Below, in pieces: positions 2,706-62,429 of a stretch of DNA of 64,000 nucleotides. How positions within the stretch are numbered: the first letter of the stretch is position 1; each line of letters opens with the position of its first letter. A program made the translations under genes and the position numbers. The notes beneath the pieces were generated by a model that saw nothing but the letters and a program-made list of their open reading frames with translations, had not been told where the DNA came from and did not search any database. The stretch is taken from NCBI RefSeq assembly GCF_007744675.1, contig NZ_CP036269.1, positions 1,317,501-1,381,500 on the forward strand. Reading direction: 5' to 3'. The stretch is from Gimesia alba (lineage in GTDB: Bacteria; Planctomycetota; Planctomycetia; Planctomycetales; Planctomycetaceae).

Positions 2706-3599
2706 ATGACGGATGAAGATGAACAGGGGAAACTGTTCCGTGCGCGGATGCTGGTGCTGCTGGCTTCGGTGCTCTGGAGCTTGAGCGGCGTCTTTATCAA
2801 GTCGCCTCCCTTTCAATCGATTCCCGAAGCAGACCGTGGCTTGATTCTGGCCTGTTATCGCGCGTTATTTGCCGGTTTGTTTCTGCTGCCGTTTGTGAAA
2901 TTCAAATACGTGCGCTGGCGCCCTGCTCTGATCCCGCTGTTGATCGTGTTTGCTGCGATGAATATTCTGTTCATGACCGCGATGACAAAAACCTCTGCCG
3001 CCGCGGCGATTTTTTTGCAGAATACCAGCGTGGTCTGGGCGATGGTGTTCGGTTTTCTGTTTTTAAAGGAACGCATCGAACGTGGATCGATTCTGGCGAT
3101 CCTGATTGTGCTGGCTGGCATTTTTTGCATCGTAGCCGGAGACTGGGCGGGAGAGAACTTTTCCGGCAACCTGATTGCGCTCACCAGCGGCGTCTGTTAC
3201 TCGCTGGTTGTGATTTTCTTTCGCGTCCTTCGCGACGAACATCCGGCCTGGTTGGTCGCGCTCTGCCTCTTGACCTCAGCGGCCATCGTGGCCCCCTGGA
3301 TGTGGCGCCTGGGGATTTCTCTAACAGGCCAGCAGTTCTTCCTCCTGGCGCTGTTAGGTGTCGTTCAGTTGGGAGCTCCCTATGTCATATTTTCGCATGC
3401 GGTCAAGACAGTTAATTCACAGGAAGCCGCTCTGTTGGTACTTGCTGAGCCGATTTTGAATCCGATCTGGGTCTGGCTATTCTGGGGCGAGACCGTTTCG
3501 ATTGCGACGCTCGTCGGCTGTTCGCTGATTATTCTGGGACTGCTCGCACGGTTTCTGTTTTTCCGGCCGAAACAAATTTTGAAACCGGAAAATGCTTAG
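2706..3599 (+). CDS. EamA (DMT superfamily) membrane transporter
   Basis: The 297-aa protein has about ten hydrophobic segments arranged as two EamA repeats, each ending in the usual pattern (for example FLFLKERIERGSILAILIVLAGI and WLFWGETVSIATLVGCSLIILGLLA). DMT family exporters move amino acids, nucleotides or other small metabolites. The substrate cannot be told. It follows hisA by 35 bases and may be cotranscribed with it. A short GC-rich hairpin (GGGC-TAAC-GCCC at 3646-3657) and a T run at 3671-3677 downstream may serve as a terminator. Confidence 0.85.
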   Translation: MTDEDEQGKLFRARMLVLLASVLWSLSGVFIKSPPFQSIPEADRGLILACYRALFAGLFLLPFVKFKYVRWRPALIPLLIVFAAMNILFMTAMTKTSAAAAIFLQNTSVVWAMVFGFLFLKERIERGSILAILIVLAGIFCIVAGDWAGENFSGNLIALTSGVCYSLVVIFFRVLRDEHPAWLVALCLLTSAAIVAPWMWRLGISLTGQQFFLLALLGVVQLGAPYVIFSHAVKTVNSQEAALLVLAEPILNPIWVWLFWGETVSIATLVGCSLIILGLLARFLFFRPKQILKPENA

Positions 3600-4407: not shown

Positions 4408-6885
4408 CTATTTCTTTTTCTGGTTCCAAAGCGTTTTGAGTTGGTCGAAGCCCTGCAGGGGCTGTGCTCCGGTTTTCATTTCATCCGTCAGTTTAGCGGG
4501 CGGCGGTCCCTGCTTGCCAGATTTTTTCCGTTTTTTCCGGTGAGGTTTGTTTTGATTACCTTGTGGTGCGGTTGCTGGTTTTTTCTGTACTGTTTTTGTC
4601 TGTTGCTGGGGGCGCTGCGCTGGTTTGGACTGATCGGGTTTTGATCGTTGTGTTTTTTTCGGCTGGCGATCGGTGCCTGGTTTGATCAAAGTTAACGAGA
4701 CGCGGCGGCGTTCCAGATCGACACCCAGCACCCAGGCGGTAATCACATCACCAACTGAGACAAACTGATACGGATTTTCGATGAAGTGATTGGCCATCTC
4801 GCTGACGTGAATCAGGGCACTGTCTTTGAGACCCACGTCCACAAAGGCACCAAAGTCAACCACATTTAAAATGGTGCCCTGCAGCTCCATGCCTTCGACC
4901 AGTTGTTCGAGCTTCAGCACGCCCTGCTTGAAGATCGGCCCCGGTAAGTCAGAACGAGGATCGCGACGGGGACGAACAATGGCTTCCAGAATATCTTCCA
5001 GTGTTGGTAAACCAATATTCAAATTACGGCTCAGATCCTGTTTGTCGAGTTGGCTGACTTTTTCAACGATCGAAGCGCGGTCACTGGCGGATGCCTTTAA
5101 ACTGTCTTCAGGCAGATCGAGTTGTGTGAAAACTTTATGAGCGTGCTCGTAACTTTCGGGATGAATCCAGGTGGAGTCAAGCGGTTCATCACCCACATCA
5201 ATCTTCAAAAATCCGGCCGCCTGAGTGAACGTAGCATCGCCAATCCCGGCAACGTCGAGCAGTTGCTTGCGATTCTGAAACGAGCCGTGCTTGTCGCGCC
5301 ATTCAGTGATGCGGCGGGCGATCAACTGGTTCATTCCTGAAACATGCCGCAGTAGAGAAGCAGAGGCGGTGTTCAGATTCACGCCCACATAATTCACGCA
5401 CGATTCAATCACTTCATCCAGTGATTCTTTCAGACGCTTGGAATTGACATCATGTTGATACATGCCAACCCCCAGATGCTGTGGATCGATTTTGACCAGT
5501 TCGCTCAACGGGTCCTGCAGGCGGCGGCCAATCGAAATGGTGCCACGAATGGTCGCGTCCAGATCGGGAAATTCTTCGCGGGCCACCGGACTGGCAGAAT
5601 AAATACTCGCGCCGGCTTCATTCACGATTAAGTAACGTGCCTCGGGCAGATTCTGTTCGATCATCTCGGTGATGATTTCTTCTGTTTCCCGGCAGGCAGT
5701 TCCGTTGCCGATCGCGACCAGCTTGCATTGATGCTCGGTCATCATCTCGGCCAGCTTGTTGCGGGCGTAATCTTTTTTCTCGGCTGAACCGGTAACATAG
5801 ACCAGATCGGTGGCGACACAGTTGCCCATCTCGTCCAACACGGCAAGTTTACAGCCCGTGCGTAAACCGGGATCAATGGCCAGTATCCGCTGGCCTTGCA
5901 GCGGCGGTTGCAGCAGTAAGTTTTTCAAGTTCTGAGCAAACACCGACACGGCATGTTTTTCTGCTTTTTCCGTCAGTTCACGGCGGATTTCGCGATCAAG
6001 GCTGGGCAGAATCAAACGCTGTAACGCGTCGGTGACGACCTCTTTTAAAAACGAATGAAAGCGGTGATCATTCAGATTCAGATGGCGGATAATAGACAGG
6101 CAGGCCGAGTCTTCCGCCCATTCGAATCGCACACGCAGAGCGCCTGATTTTTCACCCCGGTTCATGGCCATCGTGCGGTGGTGGGGGACTTTGACGACTT
6201 GTTCCGAGTAATTGAAATAGTCGCGATATTCCTGTCCCGATTCTTCTGCTTTCTTGGTGGCAGTCACCGCCAGCCGTCCCGACCGCCAGGCAATCTTGCG
6301 TGAGATATCACGCACATCAGGATCTTCGCCAATTTTTTCCGCCAGAATGTCGGCGGCTCCTTTGAGCACATCGTCTGTCGTGCGGGCGCCTTCTTCCGCT
6401 TTGGTATATTGTTTCGCTGCTTCCGTCAGATTCTGAATGCTGGCGTCACCAGCCCAGATCGCATTTGCCAAAGGTTCAAACCCATGTTTACGGGCAGTCG
6501 CGGCGCGAGATGTTCGTTTCGGGCGGTAAGGGCGGTAAAGATCTTCGAGGCGTTTCAGTGTATCGGCTTTTTCGATTTCTGCTTTTAGCTGTGGAGTCAG
6601 TTGCTGCTGTGCTTCAATCAATCGCAGGATGGTTGAAGCACGTTCCTGAATTTGCCGTTTCGATTGAACCCGTTTTTGAATGTCGCGAATTTGAACTTCA
6701 TCCAGATTGCCTGTCCGCTCTTTACGATAGCGAGTGATAAAGGGAACGGTATTCCCTTCGTCCAGCAATGCAATCACATTCAGGATCTGCTGTGATGTGA
6801 GATTCAATTCCAAAGCCATCTTCTCTGCATCTTGTGCAGAGAAGGGGGGACTGGATTGATTCTTTTGTATCTCAACCGCATCCAT
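4408..6885 (-). CDS. tex: Tex family RNA-binding transcription accessory protein
   Basis: Tex binds nucleic acid and affects transcription and RNA handling. The start at 6885 (MDAVEIQKNQ, 825 aa) is chosen because homology-like sequence begins shortly after it, while a longer in-frame extension to 7104 looks non-coding. Domain order fits the family: helical N-terminus with VPFITRYRKERTGNLDE, a YqgF/RNase H-like domain (ILAIDPGLRTGCKLAV, about residues 330-430), helix-hairpin-helix repeats (LNTASASLLRHVSGM and following), then an S1 domain (about 663-735). A lysine/proline/glutamine-rich tail of about 90 residues follows and is probably disordered. Confidence 0.92.
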   Translation of the reverse strand: MDAVEIQKNQSSPPFSAQDAEKMALELNLTSQQILNVIALLDEGNTVPFITRYRKERTGNLDEVQIRDIQKRVQSKRQIQERASTILRLIEAQQQLTPQLKAEIEKADTLKRLEDLYRPYRPKRTSRAATARKHGFEPLANAIWAGDASIQNLTEAAKQYTKAEEGARTTDDVLKGAADILAEKIGEDPDVRDISRKIAWRSGRLAVTATKKAEESGQEYRDYFNYSEQVVKVPHHRTMAMNRGEKSGALRVRFEWAEDSACLSIIRHLNLNDHRFHSFLKEVVTDALQRLILPSLDREIRRELTEKAEKHAVSVFAQNLKNLLLQPPLQGQRILAIDPGLRTGCKLAVLDEMGNCVATDLVYVTGSAEKKDYARNKLAEMMTEHQCKLVAIGNGTACRETEEIITEMIEQNLPEARYLIVNEAGASIYSASPVAREEFPDLDATIRGTISIGRRLQDPLSELVKIDPQHLGVGMYQHDVNSKRLKESLDEVIESCVNYVGVNLNTASASLLRHVSGMNQLIARRITEWRDKHGSFQNRKQLLDVAGIGDATFTQAAGFLKIDVGDEPLDSTWIHPESYEHAHKVFTQLDLPEDSLKASASDRASIVEKVSQLDKQDLSRNLNIGLPTLEDILEAIVRPRRDPRSDLPGPIFKQGVLKLEQLVEGMELQGTILNVVDFGAFVDVGLKDSALIHVSEMANHFIENPYQFVSVGDVITAWVLGVDLERRRVSLTLIKPGTDRQPKKTQRSKPDQSKPAQRPQQQTKTVQKKPATAPQGNQNKPHRKKRKKSGKQGPPPAKLTDEMKTGAQPLQGFDQLKTLWNQKKK

Positions 6886-23741: not shown

Positions 23742-24134
23742 GAGATCAACTTCTCCGTCCCTGGTTATGCGCTCTCAAAATCCCACAAATTTCGCAGTGG
23801 TCTCCATCCTGTAGACCGCCCGCATCTCAGTTTGAATTGGGGTGACTTCAGTCAAACTCTCAGTATACCGGATTTCGAAAAATACAGGCAAGATAAGTTT
23901 TCGCAGTTTCAGAGGCCATCGATGCACATCAGCACCAGTTCTCGAATGGAACAGTAGAGTCTTTAAGTCGATATGAATACAACAGTTGGAGGGGCACGCA
24001 AGACGGAAAATGATTGTACTTTTTACAATCGTGGCAGTCAGGCAGGCGTATGTTGTGAGAGTAGATTCTGCCCACAAGAAAACAGGGGAGATACCACAAA
24101 TCGAGATCGATTTGCCTGAGGAACAGAAAAAGAG
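23742..24134. other. Non-coding gap between gmhA and the attachment site
   Basis: About 390 bases with no supported gene. The only structure seen is an A-rich stretch (24127-24133) next to the tRNA fragment that reads as a T-rich tRNA terminator on the minus strand. Confidence 0.45.
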
Positions 24135-24184
24135 GGTGAGTAACGGGATTTGAACCCGCGACCTCCGGAATCACAATCCGGGAG
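24135..24184 (-). tRNA. tRNA-His (GTG) 3' half; prophage attachment site
   Basis: On the minus strand this reads as the anticodon arm CCGGA-TTGTGAT-TCCGG (24165-24181, anticodon GTG), variable loop, T arm (24143-24159, with TTCAAAT), acceptor 3' strand and discriminator C typical of tRNA-His (24135-24142). The D arm and 5' acceptor strand are missing; the sequence changes to unrelated A/T-rich DNA at about 24185. Integration of a tyrosine-recombinase element into a tRNA gene leaves exactly this kind of displaced 3' fragment. The element therefore lies to the right. Confidence 0.88.
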
Positions 24185-24303
24185 TTTTTCAGAAAACCTG
24201 AAAATTGTCTTGATCCGACTGATCCGAGTGATCGTTACAAGCTGCCCCGGATGGAATACTGGGTGTTATGCAAAGCCTGCGAAGAGAAACGAGAGATGCG
24301 TCA

Positions 24304-24492
24304 ATGTTAGTTTTAACCAGAAAGATCAACGAAAGAATTTTAATCGGCGACAACATAGTGCTCGAAGTAGTCGCGATCAGAGGTAACCGGGTCCGATTGG
24401 GGATCACCACGAATACCGGCGTGCGAATCGTGCGGGAGGAGTTGCTATCTCTGGATGAGAGGTCAGAACTGAGCAGCCGCCTACTGTTGTGA
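24304..24492 (+). CDS. csrA: CsrA family RNA-binding regulator at prophage edge
   Basis: The 62-aa protein MLVLTRKINERILIGDNI ... GNRVRLGITTNTGVRIVREEL is a full CsrA, with the N-terminal strand L4-R6 and the C-terminal VRIVREE strand holding the conserved Arg. CsrA dimers bind GGA motifs in mRNA leaders and block translation. ATG 24304 is chosen over a 12-codon-longer start because MLVLTR is the universal N-terminus and GAGAG precedes it. It is the first gene inside the truncated tRNA-His and faces inward, opposite to the prophage operon, so it seems to be prophage cargo. Confidence 0.9.
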   Translation: MLVLTRKINERILIGDNIVLEVVAIRGNRVRLGITTNTGVRIVREELLSLDERSELSSRLLL

Positions 24493-24551
24493 TTTAGTGG
24501 CTGTTAATTTCTCGCCGCGCGCACAGAAAATAAGGGCAACTCGAATCACCC

Positions 24552-24800
24552 TTATTTTCTGTGATCAACGGACATTGGCAGCAGGTGCAGTTCCGATTCC
24601 GTGCCGTCAGGATTGCGGATCACGATATCTGAGCCATCTTTCTGGGCACTCCACAGAAGCTCGTACACGGCGATTGAAAAGCGGATCACTTCGGACATTG
24701 ACTCGGCCTCCGATGCTTTCCGGAGTCGCTCAACCCGATCTTTCACGGCTTTCGGTAGCTCTAAGTTGATTCGAACTTTGTTAGGTATCTTTTTTGGCAT
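24552..24800 (-). CDS. Ribbon-helix-helix DNA-binding protein
   Basis: The 82-aa product begins MPKKIPNKVRINLELPKAVKDRVERLRKA (two parts). It has the RHH pattern: a short basic beta strand, then a helix and SMSEVIRFSIAVYELL. The start at 24800 has AAAGGAG eight bases upstream, so the 28-residue upstream extension is rejected. RHH proteins of this size act as phage or antitoxin repressors. No toxin is adjacent. A terminator-like hairpin immediately upstream separates it from the preceding operon. Confidence 0.8.
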   Translation of the reverse strand: MPKKIPNKVRINLELPKAVKDRVERLRKASEAESMSEVIRFSIAVYELLWSAQKDGSDIVIRNPDGTESELHLLPMSVDHRK

Positions 24801-24810
24801 GACAACTCCT

Positions 24811-24857
24811 TTATAGAGAAAACCGGAGCCAGCGAGCCTCCGACGCTGACTCCGGTT
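24811..24857 (-). terminator. Intrinsic terminator between operon end and RHH gene
   Basis: A 14-bp stem with one mismatch (24821-24834 with 24844-24857, nine-base loop) is followed on the minus strand by TTTTCTCTAT. It sits just upstream of the RHH Shine-Dalgarno, so it would end or attenuate read-through from the early operon. Confidence 0.7.
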
Positions 24858-24906
24858 GAGGGTACTGAACGAGTGCGGTTCCATCTAAGGCTCTCCACTG
24901 GGGAAT

Positions 24907-30049: not shown

Positions 30050-30795
30050 TACGCCGATAACAGTTCGCGAATGGTGTCGCCGCCGTATTGCCCGTCGCAC
30101 AACTCAATCACGCGCTCCAGTGGCAACTCCTGCGTGTCTTCCGGTAACCCGAGTGACTTAATACCAGCACGCAAACCGCTTTCGCAGGCGCCCGTTAGGA
30201 GGCGGTAGTCGTTAAAGGTGACCACTCCGCGAGACTTAATCTGCTTGACCAGCTCATCCGCATTGAAGTTGGCTTGTTGCTCTTTAAATCTCACGTCGCG
30301 AATTGCGGTCGCCAGCGAATCACCATGCGCCGTGTATTCTCCACAACGCGCGACAAAACAACGGTCGCCGTCCCCGCGACCGTTGAAATAAGCGGCTTTG
30401 TAATATTCACATCCATTTTTTATATGCGATGATGAAAGACGCTGCATCGCGGCGCCGTCAATCGTTTCGAGATAGATTGAATCACCCTGATAAATCTGAT
30501 CTGGACTGGTCAGACTTCGCAGGTCCAGGGTGCCGCCGGCACTGAGCGTGACGCCTTCCGGCAGACTGGTCAGACTTCGCAGGTCCAGGTAGCCGCCGGC
30601 ACTGAGCGTGACGCCTTCCGGCAGACTGGTCAGACTTTCCAGGTACAGGTTGCCGCCGGCACTGAGCGTGACGCCTTCCGGCAGACTGGTCAGACTTCGC
30701 AGGTACAGGGTGCCGCCGGCACTGAGCGTGACGCCTTCTAGTTTAGCTTTTGAGTCCTGCTCTAAAACGAGCTGATAGAGTTCTTCGATTGTCAT
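30049..30795 (-). CDS. Leucine-rich repeat-like phage protein
   Basis: The 248-aa product has a short helical cap (TIEELYQLVLEQDSKAK), then four 20-residue repeats of the form LSAGGxLxLxSLTSLPEGVT (about residues 25-100), and an alpha-helical C-terminal domain of 140 residues. The repeats should stack as a beta-solenoid or LRR-like face for protein binding. Similar repeats are known in phage and plasmid proteins without clear function. The repeats are almost identical in DNA except at three codons. Confidence 0.75.
   Translation of the reverse strand: MTIEELYQLVLEQDSKAKLEGVTLSAGGTLYLRSLTSLPEGVTLSAGGNLYLESLTSLPEGVTLSAGGYLDLRSLTSLPEGVTLSAGGTLDLRSLTSPDQIYQGDSIYLETIDGAAMQRLSSSHIKNGCEYYKAAYFNGRGDGDRCFVARCGEYTAHGDSLATAIRDVRFKEQQANFNADELVKQIKSRGVVTFNDYRLLTGACESGLRAGIKSLGLPEDTQELPLERVIELCDGQYGGDTIRELLSA
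30505..30739 (-). repeat. 60-bp tandem coding repeats (about four units)
   Basis: Units of exactly 60 bp repeat in register. Differences fall only in three codons: T, N, Y, T at the first; Y, Y, D, D at the second; R, E, R, R at the third. No synonymous change is seen. Confidence 0.9.
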
Positions 30796-52320: not shown

Positions 52321-52971
52321 TTAACCACCCGCGACGAGCAAAGCGCCGTCAGGTGTTTTCGAGCAAACTTTCCCGGCTTCATCGACGTAGATCACCTGCT
52401 CGCCTTCCGGGGCTGCGTCGACAGGACTGCAGGAGAAACCGTTCTCCGAAGCTGTGACGCCAAAGAAGTCGAAGTAAATCCGCTGTGCTTCGCCAGGGTT
52501 GTTCGCCTTGACAAACCGCGTCGGGTTGCTTTTTAAGCTTGCCTGATACAAACCGGTGTCATCGCTGGTCGGCGTCAGGTTCATCTTGCGCAACTCGCCG
52601 ATTTCAGTCGCTGAATCAACGGCAGCGTCCTTCAGTGCGGCATTCTCCTTTTCGAGTTGATCCAATTTGCCTTCAGCTTCCTTGAGCTTTTGCAGTAGGG
52701 CTTCCTGTGCTTCAGCAGCAGCTTTGTCGGCAGCGGCTTTTTCAGCAGCGGCTTTTTCAGCAGCAGCTTTGTCAGCAGCGGCTTTTTCAGCAGCAGCTTT
52801 TTCGGCAGCAGCTTTTTCGGCAGCAGCTTTTTCGGCAGCAGCTTTGTCAGCAGCGGCTTTTTCGGCAGCAGCTTTTTCGGCAGCAGCTTTGTCCTGTTGC
52901 CCCTCTGGTTTTTTTGCTCCTGCCTGCTTCGCAGCCTCTTTCATCGAGCCGCCTTGATTCTTCTGATTCAT
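52321..52971 (-). CDS. Ala/Lys/Glu repeat structural-module protein
   Basis: The 216-aa product contains 12 pentapeptide repeats of the form AAA(E/D)K (nucleotides about 52708-52887). These would form a long amphipathic rod. A coil (LLQKLKEAEGKLDQLEKENA) and a C-terminal domain with KANNPGEAQRIYFDFFGVTA follow. It lies right after the major capsid gene. A head fibre or capsid-associated spike is possible. Confidence 0.65.
   Translation of the reverse strand: MNQKNQGGSMKEAAKQAGAKKPEGQQDKAAAEKAAAEKAAADKAAAEKAAAEKAAAEKAAAEKAAADKAAAEKAAAEKAAADKAAAEAQEALLQKLKEAEGKLDQLEKENAALKDAAVDSATEIGELRKMNLTPTSDDTGLYQASLKSNPTRFVKANNPGEAQRIYFDFFGVTASENGFSCSPVDAAPEGEQVIYVDEAGKVCSKTPDGALLVAGG
52708..52887 (-). 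repeat. 15-bp tandem repeats encoding AAA(E/D)K
   Basis: About twelve near-identical 15-bp units in frame. The repeat number could vary by slippage. Confidence 0.85.
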
Positions 52972-55400: not shown

Positions 55401-56672
55401 TTAGCCGTTCAACACGTCAGCGGCGATTGACTTCAGGTCCTCTGTCTGCGACTGGGGATGTTGCAGTGATTCCTGTGCAACGGATTGCAGATTCGGCTTT
55501 GGCGGTGCAGACCGAGGCAATGACCGACCAGTGCCGGGTGCGATCTGCTTCCAGTCACTGAGCAGGTCAGTCACCTCTGCTTTTTCCTTGGCTCTCGCCA
55601 AAACGCTGATGCGAGACTCTGTCACGGGAATCCCGTGGGAGTTCAGCAGCTTCAAGGCTTTGTCTTTACGTTCCGCAAAGGCGAGTTTCTTTTCGAGATT
55701 GACCAAACGGCTTTCCAAAGTGACCGTGCCCTGCTGCTCCTTGCGGCTGGCGGATTCTGCAGCCGCCGCAGTTTCGTCAGCGGGAGTGTCGTCAGCCTCG
55801 GTCGTTGCAGCAGCGTCAAGGGGGTCGGTGTCATCGGCTTCAGTTGCAGCAGCCATTTCATCTGCGCTGGTTTCATCGGCTTCCGTGGTCACACCAAGCA
55901 CGGCGGTCACTGCTTTCACCAATGCGGCGTCATCCATTTCGGGATTGTTCAGCACGGCGAGCAATTTCTCGCGAAGCGTTTGAGGTGCGGCGACTCCACC
56001 GTCTTCCATTTCCGTTGTTGCAGCGGTTTCATCAGGTTCCAGTACGTCGGCCATTGTGGTTTGGCTCCCTTTTCCTAAAGATTCAAAAAGTCCATGCGTC
56101 GTGCCAGGCCGTTCCCCGATCAGATCAACGCTTTCAACGTGGTCAATTTTTACGATTTTCACACTGCCATCAGGAAAAACTTGCGGCGTTGAAAATGCGT
56201 AGTGGCTTAATGCGTACGCATCAGGCATCCGTTCGGCAGCCTCGGTCACCATCGCCGTGAGCGGGTGAGCGTCGAGATAATGCAGGTCACCGAACATGCC
56301 GGACTCTGTAACGCGAATATTCTTCAGCTGACCAAACTTGTCGGTGAGCTTGCGATCCTTTTGTGACGGCAGCCGCTTGCCGGTCTTGTTGTCATATTCA
56401 GATTCGAGGTGATCAACAAAGACGCTGACACCCTCGTACAGCGGAGCGGCGTTCCGCAGACACTCCAGCGTGTAGCTGTAATGATCCTGATCGGAATCTA
56501 TGCCGAGCACTTCTGGCGAATTGCCACTAACCAGGCCGGCTACCTTGACGCCTTTAATGACGCGGTTCTCACGATCAACCCGCGACACGCCGTCGGCGAC
56601 GCCGATCAGGGCTGACTGGCTCTCCTGTACGCGACATTGGGTTCCGGGTTGCAATACCGTTGCTGTTGCCAT
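55401..56672 (-). CDS. Prohead protease/scaffold-like protein
   Basis: The 423-aa product has an N-terminal part typical of capsid maturation proteases of related phages (VDHLESEYDNKTGKRLPSQK; YALSHYAFSTPQVFPDGSVK; HVESVDLIGERPGTTHGLFE). An acidic Thr/Ala/Glu/Asp low-complexity region follows, then a coil and a C-terminal segment like a scaffold. The start overlaps the portal stop (TAATG). Catalytic residues cannot be fixed by eye. Confidence 0.7.
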   Translation of the reverse strand: MATATVLQPGTQCRVQESQSALIGVADGVSRVDRENRVIKGVKVAGLVSGNSPEVLGIDSDQDHYSYTLECLRNAAPLYEGVSVFVDHLESEYDNKTGKRLPSQKDRKLTDKFGQLKNIRVTESGMFGDLHYLDAHPLTAMVTEAAERMPDAYALSHYAFSTPQVFPDGSVKIVKIDHVESVDLIGERPGTTHGLFESLGKGSQTTMADVLEPDETAATTEMEDGGVAAPQTLREKLLAVLNNPEMDDAALVKAVTAVLGVTTEADETSADEMAAATEADDTDPLDAAATTEADDTPADETAAAAESASRKEQQGTVTLESRLVNLEKKLAFAERKDKALKLLNSHGIPVTESRISVLARAKEKAEVTDLLSDWKQIAPGTGRSLPRSAPPKPNLQSVAQESLQHPQSQTEDLKSIAADVLNG

Positions 56673-58471
56673 TATGGGTACGCCTCCGAGAAGATGTCGC
56701 CGATGATCGTCTTTGCGATGGATTCAAGAGCAGGGGATGCAACGGGAGTTTCTGCAGGGGAACCTGCAGTCGGTGCTGACGCGTTCCCCAACTCCATATC
56801 AGGGGCACCGAGCGCTGCAGGCACCGCTACGCTCGAACCACTGATGATGTTTGGCACCGGTTCGAAGTTGTCCTTCTTGTCGGCACGGATGTTTTCAAGC
56901 TCCTGCTCGTAATCCTCGCCCTCCTGGGCTGCCCACGTCTTCGCGGAGAGTATCCCCTTGCCGAACAGGATCGCACGCCGCTGCGTTGCAATGTGCGGGT
57001 CGCGGACTTCGATGTCTGGTGCGGCAACATCAATCTCGATCTGCCGCTTGATCTCCTGAAACGAATTCGCGTAACCCTTGAATCGGCCAGCGGCGAAGCC
57101 AAACCGGATCACACGCCACATCATGTCTTTGAAATGCGATGAGTAGAAGAACTGCTTCGCTTCACAGGCTTTAACAAACGGCGTACCAGCCTCGACGCTG
57201 CTGGCATAATTGCCGTTGCTCGCATCACCTGAGACCATGTATTCGGGCATCGAGAAACGCGTGCCAATCGCACGCAGCAAAGCTTGTAGAACTTCGAGGT
57301 ACAGAGGTGCCGAACTTTGCCCCATCGGTCCGGCGATAAAGCTGCGACCGTTGGGCATGTCGAGCTTCGTAGCCTCGTCCAGGTGGCTGACGTTATTGAA
57401 CTTGATCCCGCCGCCCGGTTTACGCTCACTGCGGGTATAGGACTTTACAGCCTCGTTCATACTGACGATCTGAGATCCAGTGACTCCAGTTTCGTATTGC
57501 TCGATAAAAGCAATCGCCGCCTGCACGGTGGCACCGCTGGCGATATTGCGAGCAAGCTTCATCGCTCTGTCACTAAATCCCTCGACCGGATAGAAATCAC
57601 TGAGGCCACGCTTCACGTTGCGGTCGGTGTTCGACTTGATAAACACCATGTCGCTCGCGCAGATGTACTCCCAGTCGCTGCCACTGGCGTTCCACTCGGC
57701 AAAGTAACCGAGGTGGTCTTCGATATCCCGTTCCGGTGTATGCACGCCAAACGACCAGCTGCTCGGCTCACTGTCCCAGTTCAACAGATGTGGATGATGA
57801 AAAGCAACGTACTCTTCAAGTTCGCGAACCATGCCGCGAGGCTCGGTAATATATTCGGGCTCAACGATGCGTGACTTCACCTGACCGTAGCCAACGTGAT
57901 GTAACCGCAAGGGTGCCTCACCGTCGCGTGTGCCGCGTTGAAAAATTTCGCGCTCGAGGTTCCCCGACCATTTGTTGAGGTCTTCGAATTCATCGAGAAG
58001 ATCCTGAACGATACTGACCAGCTGCGGGTTTGCGTTGCGTTTACTGCGGCCCATCGCCGTGTAGGTAAAGCCGGTGCCGATTACGTAATTCGTCAAGTCA
58101 TCGAGCACGCCAGTGAGGTACGGGTTGAGTTTCACCATCACGCGGGCAATACTCCGCATGTCAGTGAGATCCTGCTCAGTCTCGATGACTGGACGGTCAC
58201 GCCCATCTTCGCGGGCGTCAGTCGCCGCCATGCCGAGCATCGCACCCAGCGGTTGACCAAACGAGTCTGTCAGCCACTCACGCGGATCAACGTAGTTCGT
58301 GTAATCCATGTAGCCATGCAGTGACTCAGCGGTCAGCGACTGTGAACGAGCGATCTCCTGATACTCAAGCTCTCGGACCTCGCGCAGCAGCTTAAGCTCA
58401 TCACGGCGGGTCCGAAGATCCTCAACCGTGACAGCCGTGCTGTGATTGTGCTGTGCAGTTCCGTTGCTCAC
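56672..58471 (-). CDS. Portal protein
   Basis: The 599-aa product fits lambda-type portals in size and has the wing and stem text: YVDPREWLTDSFGQPLGAML near the start, then EDHLGYFAEWNASGSDWEYI, GSQIVSMNEAVKSY, and IGTRFSMPEYMVSGDASNGN, EAGTPFVKACEAKQFFYSSH. The GTG start has AGGGAAG upstream. A strong hairpin terminator lies 24 bases upstream. Confidence 0.9.
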   Translation of the reverse strand: MSNGTAQHNHSTAVTVEDLRTRRDELKLLREVRELEYQEIARSQSLTAESLHGYMDYTNYVDPREWLTDSFGQPLGAMLGMAATDAREDGRDRPVIETEQDLTDMRSIARVMVKLNPYLTGVLDDLTNYVIGTGFTYTAMGRSKRNANPQLVSIVQDLLDEFEDLNKWSGNLEREIFQRGTRDGEAPLRLHHVGYGQVKSRIVEPEYITEPRGMVRELEEYVAFHHPHLLNWDSEPSSWSFGVHTPERDIEDHLGYFAEWNASGSDWEYICASDMVFIKSNTDRNVKRGLSDFYPVEGFSDRAMKLARNIASGATVQAAIAFIEQYETGVTGSQIVSMNEAVKSYTRSERKPGGGIKFNNVSHLDEATKLDMPNGRSFIAGPMGQSSAPLYLEVLQALLRAIGTRFSMPEYMVSGDASNGNYASSVEAGTPFVKACEAKQFFYSSHFKDMMWRVIRFGFAAGRFKGYANSFQEIKRQIEIDVAAPDIEVRDPHIATQRRAILFGKGILSAKTWAAQEGEDYEQELENIRADKKDNFEPVPNIISGSSVAVPAALGAPDMELGNASAPTAGSPAETPVASPALESIAKTIIGDIFSEAYP

Positions 58472-58944: not shown

Positions 58945-58975
58945 TGGAAATAATAACGAACGGCATAAACTAACT
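58945..58975 (-). promoter_or_regulatory. Prophage operator O4
   Basis: A perfect copy of the core ATAACGAACGGCAT (58953-58966) overlaps the 3' end of the minor head gene and lies upstream of the small gene 58681-58887. Confidence 0.65.
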
Positions 58976-59887
58976 GGCATAAGCGATGCGACACCGGCAT
59001 TTGTAGTGGGCTTTGGGGCCAAGCGGGAACTTCTCAGCCCAGACCGAACGCGGCTGACCATGGAGCGGCTCGCAGATCGGACACACGCGGTCATCATCCT
59101 CAGTCCACCAGGTATCCTCTTCCGAGCTGAGACCGGCCTGCTGCTTTGTTGCTTCCCCGGCGTGAGTGATGGCATCAGTCACTTCGCTGACGGCCATGCG
59201 TTCGATTCGGGCGGGGCTGAAGACTTCCTTCAGGGCATGCCGCACATCGGAGAAACTCGGCGGCTTTGTGCTCGCGGGCGGCCCCGCTGTTTTTGTTGCG
59301 GGCGGGCTCGCCTTCAGGTTGTCCGCCATCATCGATAAACCACCGACCGTCGCGGCTGCGGCGGCCCAGTTTGCCTGCATCTTCTCCATGGCGTTTCGCG
59401 AATTCTCGATGAAGCCAGCGGCGACCGACTTCGCTTGCGAGGCCGCGTACTTCGCCGACTGGATCTCGGCGACCCGCTGGTCCATCCCGTGCCACTTCGC
59501 CGACAGGCCATAGGCGGCGATCAGGAAGACAGCCAGTGAGTTCTCAAGCTCCTGCTGTTTTTCATTCCACCAGCTCGCGGGCGGCCCCCCTATATAAGGC
59601 GCGGTTTTTAGATGCGCTTGAATCTCGCGGGGATATTTGTCGAATAACCTCTTTAAGTGGTTTTCGAACCTTTTGTCAACTACTCTGCGAACCTGATCCT
59701 GGATAGTCATGGTGATCAAAGTTACAAAGCCGCTGGTGATGTTCTCCGGGTTCGGCGGGTCTCCGAGTTCATCCAGAAGTCGCGGAATCAGCTCCTCTGG
59801 CATCTGGTCGAGCTTGACGTTGATGCGGTCTTCGATTGACTTGACCAGGGGTTGGTCGAGTTGGTTAATACTGGTTAGTTTTGGCAC
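58970..59887 (-). CDS. Phage minor head protein (Mu F/SPP1 gp7 family)
   Basis: The 305-aa product ends with WTEDDDRVCPICEPLHGQPR and KAHYKCRCRIAYAS, the Cys/His signature of phage head morphogenesis proteins (CPxCxxLhG ... HxxCRC). The N-terminal part is helical. The last codons overlap operator O4. Confidence 0.9.
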   Translation of the reverse strand: MPKLTSINQLDQPLVKSIEDRINVKLDQMPEELIPRLLDELGDPPNPENITSGFVTLITMTIQDQVRRVVDKRFENHLKRLFDKYPREIQAHLKTAPYIGGPPASWWNEKQQELENSLAVFLIAAYGLSAKWHGMDQRVAEIQSAKYAASQAKSVAAGFIENSRNAMEKMQANWAAAAATVGGLSMMADNLKASPPATKTAGPPASTKPPSFSDVRHALKEVFSPARIERMAVSEVTDAITHAGEATKQQAGLSSEEDTWWTEDDDRVCPICEPLHGQPRSVWAEKFPLGPKAHYKCRCRIAYAS

Positions 59888-60177
59888 TGTTTTACCCCTC
59901 TGAAGTATTCAATAGCTTCGATCCCTCTGATGTCGCTTCCATCTGGGAATTGCACGTAAGCACAGTTGTCCTCGCCGTGACCGCAGCAGGCATTCAACAC
60001 GCAGGGCAGGGTGCCGAGGCAGGGGTCATGCCCCTCTGGTGTGTCCTCTTGGTTGCAGACGCCACAGCGGCGGTTTGGGTTACAAACCGTCCCCTGGCCA
60101 CTGTCGATATACCGCCAACAGTCTGACTCCACATCATACCGGATCGGGTGCCCTCTATGCCTGCTTGTTGCTGTCAT
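59875..60177 (-). CDS. Small Cys-rich phage protein
   Basis: The 100-aa product (start ATG 60177) has CNPNRRCGVCNQEDTPEGHD and PCLGTLPCVLNACCGHGEDN, a pattern common to small phage proteins next to head genes, with eight or more Cys. It lies just after the palindrome array and overlaps the minor head gene by 13 bases. Confidence 0.7.
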   Translation of the reverse strand: MTATSRHRGHPIRYDVESDCWRYIDSGQGTVCNPNRRCGVCNQEDTPEGHDPCLGTLPCVLNACCGHGEDNCAYVQFPDGSDIRGIEAIEYFRGVKQCQN

Positions 60178-60203
60178 CACATTCTCCAGTTAACCAGCAT
60201 TGC

Positions 60204-60539
60204 GGTTGCGCTGATTTCTGTCGACGTCGACAGAAATCAGCGCCGCTTATAGTTTCCACTAATTCCTGTATGATCGCATAGAAACGAAGCCACGTTATAA
60301 CGTTCGTTATTTTCTGTTCGCCGTCACACAAATTAGTGACGCTTCGAGTTGCCACTAATTTCTGTCGCATCGCTCACGAATTACCACCGACTGTAGTTGT
60401 CACTAATTTCTGACACGTCACTCACAAATTAGTCGTCGTTCGAATGCGCAGTAATCCCAGTGTGATCGACGACAAAATACTGCTCACTATAGTGGTTGTT
60501 ACTCCCAGTCGGTCGAGATAGAAATCAACACTTGCTACC
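60204..60539. repeat. Seven tandem 48-bp units of degenerate palindromes
   Basis: Units start at 60204, 60252, 60300, 60348, 60396, 60444 and 60492, each exactly 48 bp. The consensus is CTAATTTCTGTCG, about 4 bases, then CACAAATTAG, with an 18-bp spacer. The first unit is a perfect 30-bp palindrome (CTGATTTCTGTCGAC and its complement, 60211-60240). The third unit also contains operator palindrome ATAACGTTCGTTAT (60297-60310). It is non-coding, between the Tat-signal gene and the small Cys-rich gene. Confidence 0.88.
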
Positions 60540-60849
60540 CTAGTCCGTAATCCCCCGGAACTGACACGTCCCCCGGCGACAGACCAATTTTTATCACCTC
60601 AGCGTCAACCTCGCACTGACTGGCATCGAACGGAATGTCGCGAGTAGTTTTGCCCCTGTATGTCAAGGTGAAGGCAGTGCCGGGGACGACGGCCATGTTT
60701 GGCAGTTCAATCCTGTGTTCGCCATCCAGGATCTTGTAACCTGCCGGGATATTCACCCCATCACCGATCCATCCCCGCTCCGACTTCTTCACTACAAACG
60801 GTGCCGCAGCCACCGCGACCACTGCTGCTAAAAATCCACGTCTGTCCAT
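60535..60849 (-). CDS. Tat-signal protein with truncated beta module
   Basis: The 104-aa product starts MDRRGFLAAVVAVAAAPFVV, a twin-arginine signal (RRGFL). Its C-terminal part FTLTYRGKTTRDIPFDASQC ... DVSVPGDYG is a partial copy of the module repeated in the tail protein at 42185-45022. Its ribosome site AGGAG supports ATG 60849. The stop lies inside the last unit of the palindrome array. Tat signals are rare in phage structural operons. Confidence 0.7.
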   Translation of the reverse strand: MDRRGFLAAVVAVAAAPFVVKKSERGWIGDGVNIPAGYKILDGEHRIELPNMAVVPGTAFTLTYRGKTTRDIPFDASQCEVDAEVIKIGLSPGDVSVPGDYGLG

Positions 60850-60851
60850 CA

Positions 60852-62429
60852 CTATTCTCCTAATAAAAGTTCCCGCACCGTCCGCATCGCCATCTCCAAC
60901 GCATCAGGGCCGTCATCGTGAGTACCGCCCGGAAACGCTTTCAACTGGTTCACGAGCAGTGCCGTGCCAATGTGACCGGCTTTAAACCGAATCTCGCCAT
61001 TTGCGAGGTACGTCGTCAACTGCCGAATTCTCTGAATCTTGTTCAGTCGGTTCGTGATGCCGATCACCGGAATCATGAAGCCCGCCGCCTGCGACTGCGC
61101 CTTTACCGCCCCTGACAGCATCCCCTCAAAAAAGTTCTCCTCAATGGCGAAATGGTCCGGACCGAAGCTTACATACGTTTCGAAGCAGCGCATCACCATT
61201 CGGGCGATGTCCTCCCGCTCCATGTCACACTCGACGTAACAGGTTCCATTTTTCGCAACAGCGAGCTTGATGTAAGCCTGGTAATCGCTCTTTTCGGTCG
61301 CCCCCTTCGACGGGTCCAGTGTAACGACCTTTAGAATAATATCCTTCGGATCGGGCCACTCGCTGAACCAGATTCCCTCTTTGAAATAGCCAGCAGGCCA
61401 CTCCGCTCCGTCAAACTTCTCTGGAGGTCGCTGCTGCAGCTGCCCGGCGATGCTCGCCTCACTGACAGCACGCAGTGTGTTTTCCAGATCATCGACAGCC
61501 TGCTCGTTGAACAAAGCAGGCCAGAGCAACTCCCCGACCTCAGTTCGTGGATCGTTGAATCCGAGCGGCGTCGTTTTCATTCGGTCGAACTCAAACCGCA
61601 TCGGCAAGCAGATATGGAGCCAGCCTTTCTCCTTCGTTAGCACATGACCCGAGAGATCCTGGTCATGCAGCCGCTGCATAATCATCACGCGAGAACTCTG
61701 CCGCGATACGCCGCGAGTTGCCATCGTCCCGGACCACCACTCAACCGCCGTCTTCCGCTCGTTCTCCGATTCGGCCTGCAGTGCGTTGTGCGGGTCGTCG
61801 ACCACAATCACGTCGGGGTGTTCGCCGGTGCCTGTTCCGCCGACACTGGTCGCCATCCGCCAGCCTTTTTTGTTGTTCTCGAATTTCTTCTTCTGGTCCT
61901 GCCCGTACTTCAGGCTGAAGATTTTACCCCATCGCTTTTGATACCAATCAGAGCGAATCAGATCGCGACACTTCACGGAGTCTCGCATCGACAACGCCTG
62001 ATCGTAGCTCGCGTAAAAGAAACGCTTCGACGGCTTGTTGTTCGGTCCCCATGTCCAGGCTGGGAACATCACATTAACCAGAATAGATTTCATCGCCCCT
62101 GGCGGAACGTTGATCAAAAGTTTCTTGATCAGAAAGTCACGGAGCCCGAGCGTGTCGTCATTCACCGGGTTCACAATCGCTTCCAGGTGCTCGGCAATCG
62201 CTTTAATATGCCAGTTGTCAACGAAGGGGGCATCCGGCTCCAGGATGTGCCATGCCTGCTTCGTGAAGTGGTACAGGCTACGCTGGGCCAGCTCCTGCTC
62301 CGCTGCCGCCACTAACTTCGATGATATCGCCAGTCGGTTGTTCGGAAGACGGCGCACCAGCGACCCCGCTGCTGTCGGCAGCTGGTCCAGCAATTCGATA
62401 TGCTTCGACGATAGTTGCGAGCTGATCAA
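60852..62429 (-). CDS. Terminase large subunit
   Basis: The 525-aa product has the ATPase Walker A LLINVPPGAMKS (about residue 110), Walker B VIVVDDPHN (about 209), a coupling motif region, and the nuclease part with VVTLDPSKGATEKSDYQAYI and GTHDDGPDALEMA at the end. The N-terminus (ELAQRSLYHFTKQAWHILEP) is typical. The long overlap with the small subunit (152 bases) suggests that the true start may be later, near GTG 62312. Confidence 0.92.
   Translation of the reverse strand: MISSQLSSKHIELLDQLPTAAGSLVRRLPNNRLAISSKLVAAAEQELAQRSLYHFTKQAWHILEPDAPFVDNWHIKAIAEHLEAIVNPVNDDTLGLRDFLIKKLLINVPPGAMKSILVNVMFPAWTWGPNNKPSKRFFYASYDQALSMRDSVKCRDLIRSDWYQKRWGKIFSLKYGQDQKKKFENNKKGWRMATSVGGTGTGEHPDVIVVDDPHNALQAESENERKTAVEWWSGTMATRGVSRQSSRVMIMQRLHDQDLSGHVLTKEKGWLHICLPMRFEFDRMKTTPLGFNDPRTEVGELLWPALFNEQAVDDLENTLRAVSEASIAGQLQQRPPEKFDGAEWPAGYFKEGIWFSEWPDPKDIILKVVTLDPSKGATEKSDYQAYIKLAVAKNGTCYVECDMEREDIARMVMRCFETYVSFGPDHFAIEENFFEGMLSGAVKAQSQAAGFMIPVIGITNRLNKIQRIRQLTTYLANGEIRFKAGHIGTALLVNQLKAFPGGTHDDGPDALEMAMRTVRELLLGE

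Follow-up and report, generated by a model that had tools for sequence, protein, structure and literature searches.

Four described systems come closest to the element examined here. In sopC of F, a 43-bp repeat containing a 16-bp inverted repeat occurs twelve times (PMC9178275). In repetitive extragenic palindromic (REP) elements, the arms retain complementarity through compensatory changes (PMC2817692). Mycobacteriophage stoperators are repressor sites found across the genome that block elongation; these 13-bp sites have one predominant orientation (PMC6550527) and are bound as an asymmetric sequence (PMC9283540). The promoter/stem-loop cassettes (PeSL) of T4-type phages, as cited in PMC4503421, are promoter-terminator motifs. 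The element that we compare with them, array A1, is a non-coding tandem array of palindromic sites in a prophage of Gimesia alba, whose 7.77-Mb genome is a single contig; the window, the whole analyzed stretch of 64,000 nucleotides, covers genome positions 1317501-1381500. A1 belongs to a family of arrays carried by unrelated phages, and these arrays are, very probably, DNA lattices for an oligomerizing protein in one helical phase.

A1 spans window positions 60204-60539 as seven consecutive 48-bp units, in agreement with the original prediction. Its palindrome centers lie at 60225.5 + 48k and its 28-bp sites, like the other palindromic features below assigned to neither strand, start at 60212, 60260, 60308, 60356, 60404, 60452 and 60500. 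Of the 126 symmetric pairs in the seven units, 72 match, whereas the same test averages 31.2 over the window; no other tested start position of the window reaches 72. A held-out matrix, built from 101 units of other sources with none from the prophage and applied with a threshold of 6, scores six of the seven A1 sites above 6, the site at 60500 being the exception. On these two results a chance origin of A1 was rejected. An assembly artifact is unlikely as well: the units are degenerate, the genome consists of a single contig, and the same arrays recur in viral assemblies made independently. Unit 1 had been described as a perfect 30-bp palindrome; it is perfect, but its length is 36 bp (60208-60243). 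Tandem Repeats Finder did not list A1 in its output for the window at score 40.

The site is composed of two facing half-sites with the consensus TA(A/T)TTT(C/G)TGT, which form a 28-bp split palindrome with a little conserved center. Midway between neighboring sites lies a second conserved point, T-NN-A, mostly TATA or TCGA in the prophage. The spacing is quantized. Among 116 intervals of up to 120 bp between neighboring sites in 14 records, counted after merging sites <30 bp apart and leaving out two near-copies, 75 measure 48 bp, 6 measure 49 bp, 11 measure 57 bp and 20 measure 58 bp. The remaining four (106, 106, 107 and 116 bp) are sums with one unit missed, and no other spacing occurs among the 116. 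The 48- and 58-bp periods differ by 10 bp and thus by one turn of DNA. In addition, 10 of 38 array edges show, above the 99% null, a lone inward half-site at lattice distance whose outer partner is missing; ~0.4 such edges would be expected. The elementary unit appears to be a half-site and not the full palindrome. A CRISPR array would have near-identical repeats and unrelated spacers, whereas here the repeats are degenerate and the spacer has a conserved center (T-NN-A / TATA). Two known site types were set aside: a LexA-like box (CTGT-N8-ACAG within the site), as the outer TAATTT is better conserved than CTGT, and a 28-bp tyrosine-recombinase site of the dif layout, as the outer arms are the conserved part here and dif shows the opposite pattern.

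The original prediction delimited the element too narrowly, for A1 is one of four loci of this site in the prophage and a member of a family in viral contigs. The prophage, ~61.5 kb long, is bounded by a 48-bp direct repeat that is part of tRNA-His, with the left copy at window 24134-24181 and its partner at genome 1403096-1403143; an integrase-type gene (L006:4613-5494) lies just within the right end. Besides A1, the loci are the 1.5 units from window 24505, whose full site, Z (24505-24532), scores 23.9 with the held-out matrix, and, beyond the window, array B (genome 1386748-1387016) and array C (genome 1391366-1391633), each with six units. A lone half-site, TATTTTCTGT (24553-24562, plus strand), is found 48 bp after site Z and overlaps the stop codon of the gene of a ribbon-helix-helix (RHH) protein (24552-24884, minus strand; PF01402, E 1.2e-4). 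This protein gene adjoins site Z, and its product is a candidate binder. With a symmetric matrix of the 28-bp site built from 13 units of A1 and C (the prophage matrix), 20 strong sites (≥16.8 bits) were found in 99.5 kb, all within the prophage, and nothing else exceeds 8.7. The held-out matrix gives 24 matches above 6 in the same 99.5 kb, 19 of them in the four loci, compared with 5.1 per region in block-shuffled sequence. A pattern scan of the whole genome placed all seven places at 0-1 mismatch and six of eight at two mismatches in the prophage; at up to 3 mismatches there are 59 matches vs 35 for a reversed control. Beside array B, an AT-rich, promoter-like stretch holds two copies of TATAACT(A/T)TCGGCATAAA (L005 9643-9693).

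The same arrays occur in viral contigs. An exact split-palindrome pattern scanned over 2.9 million viral contigs matched at least 120 stretches. Arrays with at least four lattice-spaced sites are present in 14 of the 120 stretches listed, while L214, L257 and L279 have a site pair only. Two further patterns added three contigs (L308, L320 and L332), and later patterns returned mostly already known contigs or single sites. The family is larger than this count, with at least 17 viral contigs that carry arrays, or 13 once near-copies, judged by shared open reading frames (ORFs) and spacing pattern, are set aside (L254 and L264 of L216, L296 of L203, and L332 of L320); contigs with only two lattice-spaced sites (L214, L257, L279 and L357) were also left out. 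The large terminases adjoining arrays match at least three PHROG families (5653, 38 and 2), so the carriers are not one lineage. One contig is ~95% identical to Nonlabens phages P12024L/S over 41% of its analyzed stretch. The terminase of one array contig is 54% identical to that of Flavobacterium phages, that of another is 43% identical to that of Salmonella phage vB_SenTO17, and that of contig L297 is related to the prophage terminase. No gene family was found in all array contigs; a helicase family is present in four and a VRR-NUC-type ORF in two. Tests for ParB_N and integrase covered 15 of the 17 array-bearing viral records (G559 and G562 left out), some of which are fragments, and found ParB_N in none and a tyrosine integrase in only one. 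A Pfam survey of 114 of the 123 small ORFs of the long contigs G552 and G556 yielded no shared candidate among the 25 listed families out of 42, and two members match a winged helix-turn-helix (HTH) family.

Among 198 related genomes, six had a match, and a lattice is present only in the G. alba genome and in G012; the single palindromes of G004, G011, G124 and G162 were discounted on inspection. A search of 392 genomes of the phylum, partly the same as the 198, found four with a match, none of them new. Weak matches are lost in both of these searches, whose filters were stricter. Queried with the array stretches, blastn recovered no array from phage and plasmid records, BLAST being weak for degenerate arrays, and the best-ranked matches in open-licence literature contained no description of such an array or of its motif strings. 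The array does not follow the terminase, since the terminase relatives scanned lack an array at the locus. Terminase matches were found in 42 of the 198 related genomes, and of 30 loci scanned with ~1.5 kb of flank only the G. alba locus has an array; a prophage-matrix scan of terminase relatives at 9 genome loci and 80 viral-contig loci found no array and a single isolated site in each of L101 and L102. The refuting condition named in the original prediction, related prophages without palindrome conservation in the same place, thus gave a mixed outcome: the terminase relatives examined have no such array there, but phages with other terminases do have it, partly next to their terminase genes.

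The original prediction had offered two readings, a binding array for a DNA-binding protein and a ladder of RNA hairpins, and had proposed that pairing covariation be scored over the aligned units. The arms do not covary. In the 20 prophage units, 64.7% of cells pair, vs 66.2% after shuffling; in the conserved arm of 120 units from 13 sources, there are 790 paired cells, vs 799 shuffled and 808 shuffled within contigs. The other lattice phase gave no positive correlation in the conserved part, and position 7 shows, if anything, a preference for mixed C/G half-site pairs. The outer pairs of unit 6 are kept with other bases, as had been noted, but this is true of unit 6 alone and not across the 20 or the 120 units. 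In the window, Rfam at gathering score recognizes only a tRNA fragment and has no match at the array. Perfect-stem terminators lie within ~10 bp of an array edge in G556 and G557, with one at G012 and one near G560; strict rules found none at the edges of the other arrays. Binding of a protein to DNA would be consistent with the conserved half-sites, the one-turn spacing and the lack of arm covariation, which favor the first of the two readings indirectly. Taken together, quantized spacing, conserved half-sites that do not covary, and placement at gene boundaries that are array-free in some relatives speak more for an oligomeric protein on a DNA lattice than for a ladder of RNA hairpins.

REP elements, with bacterial interspersed mosaic elements (BIMEs) and REP-associated tyrosine transposases (RAYTs), resemble the arrays in being mobile-looking tandem extragenic palindromes of variable copy number and regular spacing. 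A1 forms such a regular extragenic cluster. However, the arms of the arrays show no compensatory change, whereas those of REPs stay complementary, and REPs are abundant in host chromosomes, whereas the strong sites here are confined to the prophage. Two CsrA-like ORFs, named from sequence reading, lie in the prophage at window 24268-24492 (plus strand) and genome 1385068-1385262 (minus strand) and are similar to an ORF of G012. CsrA-type hairpins were set aside, as no GGA loop motif stood out by eye despite these two ORFs.

The arrays sit at gene boundaries. We compared 19 non-redundant arrays, comprising the four prophage loci, 14 arrays in 13 viral contigs, and one in G012. By our own ORF calls, 13 lie between co-directional genes, three between convergent genes (site Z, G556 and G561) and three in ambiguous settings (G553, G554 and G560), and none is clearly divergent. 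Several are flush with the ORFs: at array C (L005:14632-14634), in G563 (3571-3573) and for terS of G565 (4758-4760), the upstream ORF has the terminal TAA of a site as its stop codon. A1 occupies the gap between two minus-strand ORFs with no Pfam match. Upstream lies a small ORF with a putative Tat-like N-terminus, read from sequence (60535-60852), which follows terL and stops inside the last A1 unit, as had been predicted. Downstream lies a 101-aa ORF (59875-60180), whose start codon is 31 bp from the first site and which precedes the genes of a Mu F-like (MuF) head protein (58970-59887, minus strand; PF04233, E 6.6e-9) and a portal protein (56672-58471, minus strand; PF05136, E 2.5e-8). The large terminase TerL (60852-62429, minus strand) has no Pfam match; its homologues were found by tblastn, and the homologue in L297 matches PHROG terminases.

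Comparison of related phages gives hints of gain and loss. G564 and G556 share a head operon, in which G564 has arrays in the terL/portal and portal/MuF gaps and G556 has none in the same gaps. The terL-portal gap of G556 is likely 13 bp, the longest portal ORF overlapping terL, and its portal/MuF gap comes to ~20-36 bp, according to which start is taken. No counterpart of the G561 array is present in the close relatives of this contig, the Nonlabens phages P12024L/S; they do not provide a clean empty site, because the flanking region differs. In Flavobacterium phage FPSV-S2 and in Salmonella phage vB_SenTO17, the junctions at terL are packed. A 17-bp inverted repeat with one mismatch surrounds the G561 array and an 11-bp inverted repeat the G560 array. 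Around the G565 array, a 15-bp direct repeat with one mismatch, which duplicates the terL start, was read by eye. These flanking repeats and array-free boundaries are hints of insertion, not proof.

We therefore favor, at a probability of roughly 45%, a reading in which the array is a protein-coated half-site DNA lattice that spreads horizontally as a non-coding intergenic cassette and is recognized in trans. This reading fits best because one consensus is found in unrelated phages, the array is absent in relatives, and its position varies. An oligomerizing DNA-binding protein would coat the half-sites cooperatively along one helical phase, and it would act in trans, as suggested by the lack of a gene family seen in all array-bearing contigs. 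Whole arrays would be acquired at once, through insertion or recombination in the interval from a stop codon to the following ribosome-binding region, and tandem unit change would then lengthen or shorten them. The most likely use of the lattice, though the least certain part of this reading, would be as a handle for maintaining and moving the cassette, with a possible additional service to the phage. PeSL, a non-coding cassette proposed to shuffle phage genes, is the nearest idea of such an element; the conserved part of the arrays, however, is neither promoter nor hairpin. Only tentatively do we extend this to a new class of gene-free mobile phage elements, which would pass from one gene boundary to another among unrelated viruses, provide stop codons for the genes they follow, and persist through a trans-supplied oligomeric protein filament on a one-turn lattice.

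Several observations weigh against a spreading, protein-coated cassette. A conserved host factor could also explain why unrelated phages share one consensus, and array-free relatives could possibly have lost their arrays by deletion; in G556 such a loss is possible because its portal/MuF gap contains an 8-mer, AGAAATTA, which may be a relic half-site. Flanking repeats exceed shuffles in only two of the 19 arrays (30 mononucleotide shuffles each), the other repeats being the arrays' own, and no transposase or recombinase could be tied to the arrays. The held-out matrix scores 14.0 at 83209 on the window scale (genome 1400709), within the prophage, outside the four loci and off the lattice. At two edges (G552 right and G555 left) it is an outward half-site that stands alone. 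Outer and inner pairs exceed shuffles across contigs (366 vs 316 and 197 vs 177), an excess that vanishes with within-contig shuffling (363 and 211). As RNA, whole A1 (z -4.89) and array C (z -3.53) fold better than dinucleotide shuffles; with the perfect first unit removed, A1 gains little over shuffles (z -1.33). In addition, a terS, terL or portal gene lies within one gene of seven of the 19 arrays, which may hint at packaging. It is only a hint, because G551 and G553, with terminases of one family, do not count independently, and the selection of short viral contigs tends to favor such genes.

Alternatively, the array could be a sopC-like centromere or genome handle, on which a centromere-binding protein loads to segregate, condense or anchor phage DNA. 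The architecture is close to that of sopC of F, which belongs to the ParABS type Ia systems: in both, non-coding tandem units just under 50 bp long each hold a symmetric protein site, and A1 has the tandem repeats with an inverted repeat in each. The array would work like sopC and is a possible member of that class. The differences are another site sequence, a 28-bp split palindrome, two quantized periods, several places per prophage, and the absence of ParB_N from the 15 viral records. It suits a centromere that a ParB carrying both ParB_N and HTH_ParB domains is encoded in the prophage, that each of the long contigs G552, G556 and G560 has one array, and that arrays also lie in convergent gaps, so that the role need not be transcriptional. 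No ParA-like protein, however, stood out in the prophage in a look at motifs only, and an integrated prophage has no need of partition. Since ParB_N is missing from the array-bearing records, some of them fragments, ParB is a candidate binder in this prophage only, and ParB partition is weakened as a general role. We consider the centromere unlikely.

Stoperator-like roadblocks, by which a repressor on intergenic arrays would halt late-operon transcription in the lysogen, appear quite unlikely. Stoperators of cluster A mycobacteriophages are likewise intergenic or genome-wide phage protein sites, and it would suit this role that many arrays lie in co-directional gaps, several of them in head and packaging operons, and that the prophage has four loci. 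In place of a short asymmetric site in a single orientation, however, the arrays have conserved half-sites on both strands, forming 28-bp symmetric sites in tandem. The array consensus is common to unrelated phages, whereas stoperator motifs vary with their repressors. The three arrays between convergent genes, the single arrays of the three long contigs, and the finding of only one tyrosine integrase among the 15 partly fragmentary records also speak against this role. Moreover, a different operator-like repeat, ATGGAC-N7-GTCCAT, unlike the array site, lies by the HTH genes beside the integrase gene (genome 1400650-1400710, ~L006 3650-3710).

A pac- or cosB-like packaging site recognized by the small terminase subunit is more doubtful still. 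Five of the 19 arrays are directly flanked by terS, terL or portal genes: the array lies between terS and terL in G565/G566 and directly 5' of terL in G551 and G553, and the arrays of G564 lie between terL, portal and MuF genes; in A1 and G563 one small gene separates the array from terL or its neighbors. Set against this, 12 of the 19 have no recognized terminase or portal gene within one gene (not every neighbor being annotated), three of the four prophage loci lie elsewhere, the same site accompanies terminases of different families, and relatives package without an array. The RNA hairpin ladder in intergenic mRNA, serving stability, processing or protein binding, is very improbable, for despite the good folding of whole A1 and C and a placement that resembles REP elements, the arms covary in neither phase, A1 without unit 1 does not stand out from shuffles, the spacing shifts by one DNA turn, and Rfam has no match at the array.

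Other features of the region and of the array-bearing contigs were recorded in passing. An ORF at window 63687-64010 (minus strand) appears to resemble a GroES co-chaperonin. The window also contains a 15-bp tandem repeat of 12 copies (52711-52890), which encodes an Ala/Lys-rich stretch of a 216-aa ORF, and a 60-bp tandem repeat of 3.9 copies with 94% matches (30504-30738). A 93-aa protein encoded at L005:6461-6742 (minus strand) consists almost solely of MutS domain I (PF01624, E 2.9e-21). In G552/G556, one of the 114 small ORFs matches the core histone family PF00125 (E 5.4e-8), and matches to QueC, QueF, GTP cyclohydrolase and PTPS suggest 7-deazaguanine synthesis, possibly for DNA modification.

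Because non-coding DNA is scarce in phages, a non-coding insert of ~200-1000 bp that is kept in compact phage operons calls for a reason. One consensus, two periods one turn apart, and no gene seen in all carriers make a clean and testable lattice. The family could reveal a mobile non-coding viral element or a shared handle for phage DNA.
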